Origin: Deltaproteobacteria bacterium
Lineage (GTDB): Bacteria; Desulfobacterota; Desulfuromonadia; Desulfuromonadales; Geopsychrobacteraceae
DNA: 64,000 nucleotides
Assembly: GCA_024280335.1 (NCBI GenBank)
Contig: JAJRQI010000008.1
Span: 1 to 64,000, forward strand
Reading direction: 5' to 3'
A model generated the notes under the pieces. The model was not told where the DNA came from and searched no databases. It saw only the letters and a program-made list of their open reading frames with translations. Positions 37,800 to 59,346 of this stretch are shown piece after piece (within the stretch, counting starts at the first letter, position 1; each line of letters starts with the position of its first letter). Position numbers and translations under genes: made by a program.

Positions 37800-37846
37800 A
37801 GCTCCAAGTCGGATTGTCTATCCGGGCAAAGCCAGATAAAAAGCGT

Positions 37847-37982
37847 AATTATTCAACACATCCCGCCTTCGGCACTCTAGCGGCGTTGCTGTGCTGCTCA
37901 AATGCTCATATACCCAAGTATGCACCACTTTTGTGCTGCTCGCGCCTTACCAGAGCACCGAATTCAGGCGTGCTGAATAATT
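37847..37982. repeat. Fold-back intergenic repeat, copy A (136 bp)
   Basis: The element is bounded by AATTATTCA (37847-37855) and TGAATAATT (37974-37982) as terminal inverted repeats. Its interior is the reverse complement, with scattered changes, of the element at 59178-59315. Shared internal words include GCGCCTTAC/GCAAGGCGC, GAGCAGCAC, GAGCATTTGAG and the CGCCTTCGGCAC/GTGCCGAAGGCG end. The arms can pair along most of their length, giving a long imperfect hairpin. No open frame. It fits a MITE or a structured intergenic repeat, here between hprK and ptsN. Confidence 0.75.
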
Positions 37983-38058
37983 ACTAAAAAACATAAGTGG
38001 TCGCCGCCGAACAATCCGAACCAGACAGCATGAGCCGGTTATTCTCTATCCGGCAGAA

Positions 38059-59163: not shown

Positions 59164-59177
59164 TCTTTCCTGCGAAG

Positions 59178-59315
59178 TTGCTATTCAGCACGCCCGAATT
59201 TGGTGCTCTGGCAAGGCGCGAGCAGCGCAGAAGCGGAGCATACATGGCTATGTGAGCATTTGAGCAGCACAGCAACGCCGCCAGAGTGCCGAAGGCGGGA
59301 TGTGCTGAATAGCAA
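59178..59315. repeat. Fold-back intergenic repeat, copy B (138 bp), between the two cassettes
   Basis: Terminal inverted repeats TTGCTATTCAGCAC (59178-59191) and GTGCTGAATAGCAA (59302-59315) match perfectly over 14 bp. Inside, GGTGCTCTGGC pairs with GCCAGAGTGCC using G-U pairs, and GGCG with CGCC. The unit is the reverse complement of copy A (37847-37982) with scattered changes. It begins 14 bases after the first HD-GYP stop. No coding potential. Confidence 0.78.
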
Positions 59316-59346
59316 CCCTGCGAACAGGTTTGCCTGTAACCTTAAC

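Follow-up and report, generated by a model that had tools for sequence, protein, structure and literature searches.

A 140-bp MITE-like repeat with IS66-type ends and a core homologous to the groES-groEL spacer hairpin in a Geopsychrobacteraceae genome

Bacterial MITEs such as RUP, Correia/NEMIS and Chunjie of Geobacter are, in the parts of PMC2229807 and PMC10969869 devoted to them, short multicopy elements with terminal inverted repeats (TIRs) and target duplications, located mostly between genes; the repeat described here is similar in all these respects. The word IS66 does not occur in the MITE review PMC10969869. The ISBst12 group of insertion sequences includes ISDge4, which has been seen to transpose and which, according to the section of PMC12898284 concerning it, has the ends GTGACTACTCAGCA and GTAACTGCTCAGCA, one ORF of 449 aa and an 8-bp repeat. 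The present study deals with two copies, A and B, of a fold-back repeat from a Deltaproteobacteria bacterium (assembly GCA_024280335.1). Both lie in a 64,000-nucleotide stretch of contig JAJRQI010000008.1, referred to below as the window. Very probably they are 140-bp non-autonomous MITE copies with TIRs of the ISBst12 group (IS66 family). A transposase with matching ends would have inserted them, their hairpin core would have been captured, and their ends may have been modified by template switching between the hairpin arms.

Limits, copy number and transposase partner

Copy A occupies positions 37845..37984 on the plus strand, and copy B, positions 59177..59316 on the minus strand. Both are complete and equally long (140 bp), their limits being fixed by flanking 8-bp target duplications. 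A is enclosed by TAAAAAGC (37837..37844) and TAAAAAAC (37985..37992), identical in 7 of 8 positions, whereas the two copies of CCTGCGAA around B (59169..59176 and 59317..59324) agree in 8 of 8. The ends themselves are divergent, GTAATTATTCA..TGAATAATTAC in A and GTTGCTATTCAGCAC..GTGCTGAATAGCAAC in B. An earlier, sequence-only reading had recognized A and B as inverted copies, and they are indeed 91% identical over the aligned part. Its limits (37847-37982 and 59178-59315) placed the copies correctly but fell a few bases short of the ends set by the duplications.

A is situated between a ptsN-like gene for a PTS EIIA protein and the HPr kinase gene hprK, in the minus-strand row rpoN-hpf-ptsN-hprK-rapZ (we assigned the names ptsN, hpf, hprK and rapZ from Pfam matches). 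B is located 13 nt 3' of the stop codon of an HD-domain gene and is followed by a HEAT-repeat gene, both on the plus strand. Each copy thus lies between co-directional genes; a vertically inherited operon element is ruled out at either site by the 8-bp duplications.

BLAST produced 29 matches in the genome of origin (3.585 Mb, 72 contigs), interpreted as 23 near-full copies and four partial or internally deleted ones. Since four near-full copies stand at contig ends (C34, C56, C64 and C16), the physical copies are perhaps a few fewer than 23. The draft genome therefore holds many copies beyond the two noticed at first, and they occur in both orientations. The consensus of their ends is GTAACTATTCAGC and GCTGAATAGTTAC, and in several copies one of the two ends contains a gap of 2 bp. 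Among core-family copies with two ungapped ends, the duplication is 8/8 in 9 of 11 and 7/8 in 2 of 11. Pairing of ends across 43 sources (42 loci plus the window) yielded 28 candidate elements with any interior; among these it is 8/8 in 11, at least 7/8 in 16 and at least 6/8 in 17, while shuffled flanks reached 6/8 in 3.6%. An A/T run of at least 4 is present in 9 of the 17 targets, compared with 5% of 8-mers in the window. TIR-bearing copies are found in other genomes as well, two of them (L078 and L091) with exact duplications; of eight copies examined from other genomes, seven have an end pair, and just three of these a duplication of at least 7/8. The repeat is multicopy and short, contains no transposase ORF and has both TIRs and a target duplication, in agreement with membership in the MITEs.

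The 12-mer end GTAACTATTCAG, with at most one mismatch, is found at 98 genomic sites, compared with 4 when the reversed control is used. Two exact copies of it bound a 1723-bp element (G000:C38:21818-23540, L054) encoding an intact single transposase of 472 aa, which matches the IS66 model NF033517 at 287.7 bits and also PF03050; the duplication of this element is just 6/8. It is an ISBst12-like member of the IS66 family and the likely partner of the MITEs. The reading of A and B as MITEs follows from the match of their ends to those of this element, which has an intact transposase in the same genome. The 8-bp duplication, the GTAACTnnTCAGC-like ends and the single-ORF IS66 transposase of the partner are all features of the ISBst12 group. 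A second IS66-type transposase gene of the same genome is located on contig C50. The transposase was detected in one of 44 family genomes (E ≤ 1e-20), and MITE copies are present in a few others; the partners in those genomes may have been lost or be absent from the drafts. A MITE mobilized by a transposase encoded elsewhere had been one of the candidates proposed from the sequence. It is well supported by the copy number, by the 8-bp duplications and by a candidate autonomous partner that shares these ends. The transposase of the C38 element or of a close relative would bind the ends of A and B in trans, and insertion, frequently into a run of A or T, would generate the 8-bp duplication.

The same ends also enclose other interiors, namely a long-palindrome family with GGCCTCG/TGCCCAC (L057, L059, L067) and a CCCCGAATGATTC palindrome family (CCCCGAATG type in L058 and L060). 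A duplication of at least 6/8 flanks six other-interior elements, the five just listed and L071. Six more (L055, L056, L061-L064) have ends of the same type and no clear duplication; L062 and L063 among them are 194- and 253-bp forms. Altogether, the loci L055-L073 of this genome represent further MITE families with IS66-type ends and unrelated palindromic interiors. From the presence of at least two unrelated hairpin interiors within the same ends we infer that IS66-type ends captured intergenic hairpins already resident. The body of A and B is a hairpin homologous to that between groES and groEL, and not the remainder of a deleted transposase gene.

Changes in the terminal stems

Both ends of A contain GTAAT and both ends of B contain GTTGC, the consensus being GTAAC. 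The earlier statement that the ends of the two copies differ and yet stay self-complementary thus refers to real symmetric changes, although their excess over shuffling is biased by the choice of A and B. Changes were counted in 17 elements of the genome with duplications of at least 6/8, A and B included. They are few: 18 changed positions are asymmetric and four symmetric, where 0.53 would be expected from shuffling (P = 0.003). One symmetric position belongs to A, two to B and one to L027, and the P value is optimistic because three of the four come from copies picked for that very trait.

The internal arms had also been said to keep pairing. This fails in A, where one pair is broken by the CTCTAG arm (A-C) and another by CTTACC (C-A); the hairpin of A is decaying. 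In view of these broken inner pairs we reject selection as the source of the end changes of A. Of the two causes suggested earlier in place of drift, selection on a hairpin or its copying, the latter is plausible for the end stems, but the former is unsupported at A and B, the inner pairs of A having been lost. Hairpin-templated copying fits the terminal stems of A and B better than selection on an RNA.

Within the MITE reading we lean, by a little, towards template switching between hairpin arms, and not selection for pairing, as the origin of the symmetric changes. Template switching is reported to create and maintain hairpins (PMC8794818). The excess of symmetric changes over shuffling argues for this mechanism, and so do the asymmetric positions, from which it follows that pairing is not required at the ends. 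On the other hand, most of the symmetric positions lie in the two copies chosen for them, a coincidence of independent transitions (C to T in A) is conceivable, and B could derive from a lineage with GTTGC ends. If template switching is the cause, the matched changes in A and B would most likely have arisen in DNA, by occasional arm-to-arm correction in some copies, with decay proceeding alongside.

The hairpin core in relatives and the groES-groEL spacer

The hairpin cores of A (37876..37956, plus strand) and B (59205..59285, minus strand) are homologous to a hairpin that relatives have in their groES-groEL spacer. They score 75.5 and 95.8 bits, respectively, with the covariance model R1, whose rows include A and B themselves; for the core of B, the homology is also supported by independent BLAST matches. 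Matches to B were found in 15 of 41 genomes (40 relatives and the genome of origin). In most relatives they cover the core only and occur once per genome, and in nine loci the match lies directly 3' of groES. A scan of named genomes retrieved 17 stretches. By record title all of them belong to Desulfuromonadales or Deltaproteobacteria, and in ten groES lies directly upstream. Searching with a covariance model of the core, a check suggested with the sequence-only reading, gave matches in 19 of 44 family genomes: 25 in the genome of origin and 1 or 2 in each of the others. L135 (G043) and L143 (G020), from two species, each contain a core-like hairpin as well. It follows the gene for one and the same protein in both, apparently at a shared locus; possibly this is another conserved single-copy site.

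Covariation was assessed with shuffles that ignore kinship and a structure derived from the same sequences. In 11 groESL sequences with 41 pairs, 97.3% of cells are paired (94.2 after shuffling), there are 16 double-change cells (4.7 after shuffling; 0/500 shuffles), and the covariation score is 0.151 (0.097 after shuffling). Slid controls are also far lower, with at most 43% of cells paired. One measure is contrary, further pair types numbering 13 compared with 15.5 in shuffles. When groESL sequences are combined with MITEs (24 sequences, 22 pairs), the double-change cells number 27 versus 11.2. Compensatory changes above chance are clear in the groES-groEL hairpin of relatives. Selection on a hairpin, which had been proposed for A and B, thus finds its support in this homologous single-copy hairpin.

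Spacers were collected from the 44 family genomes, of which 32 yielded a complete spacer and one (G049) a cut one; in the others groES was not found or the locus was unparsed. The core hairpin is present in 13 spacers and a remnant or diverged core in four (the genome of origin, G016, G017 and G045). Two spacers contain a "type 2" hairpin, which has also been added in the genome of origin and begins in the cut spacer of G049. One (G001) contains an IS66-type MITE, two contain other inserts, and the remaining ten are 35-85 nt long without a hairpin. Type 2 is a second abundant repeat, about 148 bp long with GATGGCGTCGCAAAAA ends (L092:1868-2015). It occurs in 33 of the 44 family genomes, many of which hold it at 19 or more places. 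The MITE of G001 (L094) has another interior and lies at the groES stop codon, which is included in its exact 8-bp duplication GAATAATT. In L160 (G057) and L109 (G018), long, structured and unrelated inserts occupy the groES-groEL spacer. On a tree of 38 GroES and partial GroEL rows, in which G006 and G013 of the spacer set are missing, the five spacer states, as assigned by us, require at least 15 state changes. The groES-groEL hairpin has thus disappeared or been replaced on several occasions, on one of which a newly inserted IS66-type MITE took its place. In other families, a script parsed 10 of 14 loci, with spacers 35-71 nt long; of the other four, L164 has a short spacer as judged by eye and three were unparsed. 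As a control, 17 DnaJ loci were considered, with a dnaK-like gene upstream in 16; in L254 the upstream ORF is not dnaK-like, and this locus was excluded. The spacers here are 66-235 nt long and, by eye, mostly contain compact GC hairpins, none with the core motifs.

It is doubtful, in our estimation, that the groES-groEL hairpin derived from an ancient insertion of the A/B-type MITE instead of having been captured by the MITE. An insertion origin would agree with the extension of the homology to the outer stem, with TGCTGAATA in one groESL copy (gro_G019), which resembles the MITE end, with the absence of the hairpin from the spacers of other families, and with the recent insertion in G001. 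However, on a short, unrooted tree the groESL cores form one clade (98/97) separate from the MITEs and the other copies, a topology that speaks against their having arisen by repeated insertion of MITEs. Moreover, the groESL copies have neither full ends nor recognizable duplications, and TIR-less relatives of the hairpin exist elsewhere (L036, L135, L145).

Considerably less probable is a structured RNA or mRNA element kept at A and B by selection for its fold. It could be expected from the covariation of the groES-groEL homolog, where six pairs show double changes, from the strong folding of B as DNA (z = -5.4) and from the position of both copies between co-directional genes. Yet A folds weakly (z = -2.8) and has lost inner pairs, the copies stand in either orientation within 8-bp duplications, and the genome of origin alone is strongly multicopy. 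No Rfam family was matched at the gathering score, and a known Rfam RNA is thereby ruled out. Intrinsic terminators or terminator-like elements, also suggested from the sequence, are very improbable. In their favour, the targets are often A/T runs, so that copies adjoin T-tracts, and L018 lies within a terminator-like T run; but the hairpins are long and imperfect, and a compact GC stem with a T run was looked for at A and B and is absent from both.

A wider hairpin set and comparison with known repeats

The pattern TGCGTTG-N40-70-CGCCTTG has 250 matches in 118 genomes, compared with 35 for the reversed control, although some matches are not hairpins and several of those listed resemble coding sequence. 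At least four matches are present in 19 genomes, and in 0 with the control. In 16 genomes, the mean energies of own versus swapped arms are -18.0 and -10.7 kcal/mol for the inner stem, and -14.2 and -7.5 kcal/mol for the outer one; own arms ranked first in 8/16 and 5/16 genomes, respectively. From the matches we selected 40 elements by hand (L191-L230), most of them because a hairpin was visible. In 19 of these, an ORF of at least 150 aa on the same strand ends no more than 300 nt away. This end lies 23-31 nt before TGCGTTG in 16 of the 19, versus 0 of 17 in that range on the opposite side. The distance from the stop codon to the motif is 24-27 nt in all 14 groESL spacers tested, 25 nt in L145 and 29 nt in L036. 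A and B retain GCGTTG and CGCCTTG, their position being set by transposition and not by a stop codon. The groESL hairpin and the MITE core look like members of a wider set of Desulfobacterota hairpins, often starting at a stop codon.

The groESL hairpin may function in the mRNA between the two cistrons, where a terminating ribosome perhaps opens it. Delihas, in the relevant part of PMC2229807, summarizes a case of this kind for ERIC in Yersinia. Adjacency to the stop codon would let the ribosome open the base of the hairpin, which could then switch mRNA processing between cistrons. Tentatively, and as a plausible rather than a probable picture, we propose a large undescribed Desulfobacterota class of long imperfect hairpins with conserved TGCGTTG/CGCCTTG arms and an outer stem at the upstream stop codon, serving as a ribosome-opened mRNA-processing switch. 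The groESL hairpin would be one member, adopted in one family and replaced by other hairpins when lost, and IS66-type ends would have wrapped members of this class and of other hairpin classes into MITEs, A and B among them.

These findings connect a mobile repeat with a hairpin that covaries and lies within the chaperonin operon, which is nearly universal. The groES-groEL spacer of this operon has been refilled by unrelated hairpins, once through the recent insertion of a MITE at the groES stop codon. This suggests that bacterial MITEs can be a source of preformed mRNA hairpins. In the symmetric end changes, nature provides an example on which template switching and selection can be compared. 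Open-access titles and abstracts found for the groES-groEL hairpin, IS66 MITEs, palindromes of Geobacter or Deltaproteobacteria and both motif strings do not describe the element.

ERIC/IRU sequences of enterobacteria, about 127 bp long, resemble A and B as imperfect intergenic palindromes. In one E. coli ERIC copy (L262) inspected by eye, CTGCGTT and CCGCCTT stand on opposite arms around the apical stem, a resemblance to the Desulfobacterota hairpins that could be chance; the ends of ERIC differ from those of A and B, being 7 bp with TA according to the table in PMC2229807. REP/REPIN are intergenic palindromes too, of 20-40 bp in the passages of PMC3733652 describing them, versus more than 100 bp here. 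With the ISBst12 group, as far as ISDge4 is characterized in the section cited above, A and B share ends near GTAACTnnTCAGCA and the 8-bp duplication, and their partner shares the single transposase ORF. Unlike these insertion sequences, A and B are 140 bp long, have no transposase and contain an interior unrelated to the IS. From the MITEs named at the outset, as covered in the parts of the reviews devoted to them, the family of A and B differs in its IS66-type ends, in having several unrelated interiors per end type and in the homology of its interior with a hairpin conserved in the groESL spacer.
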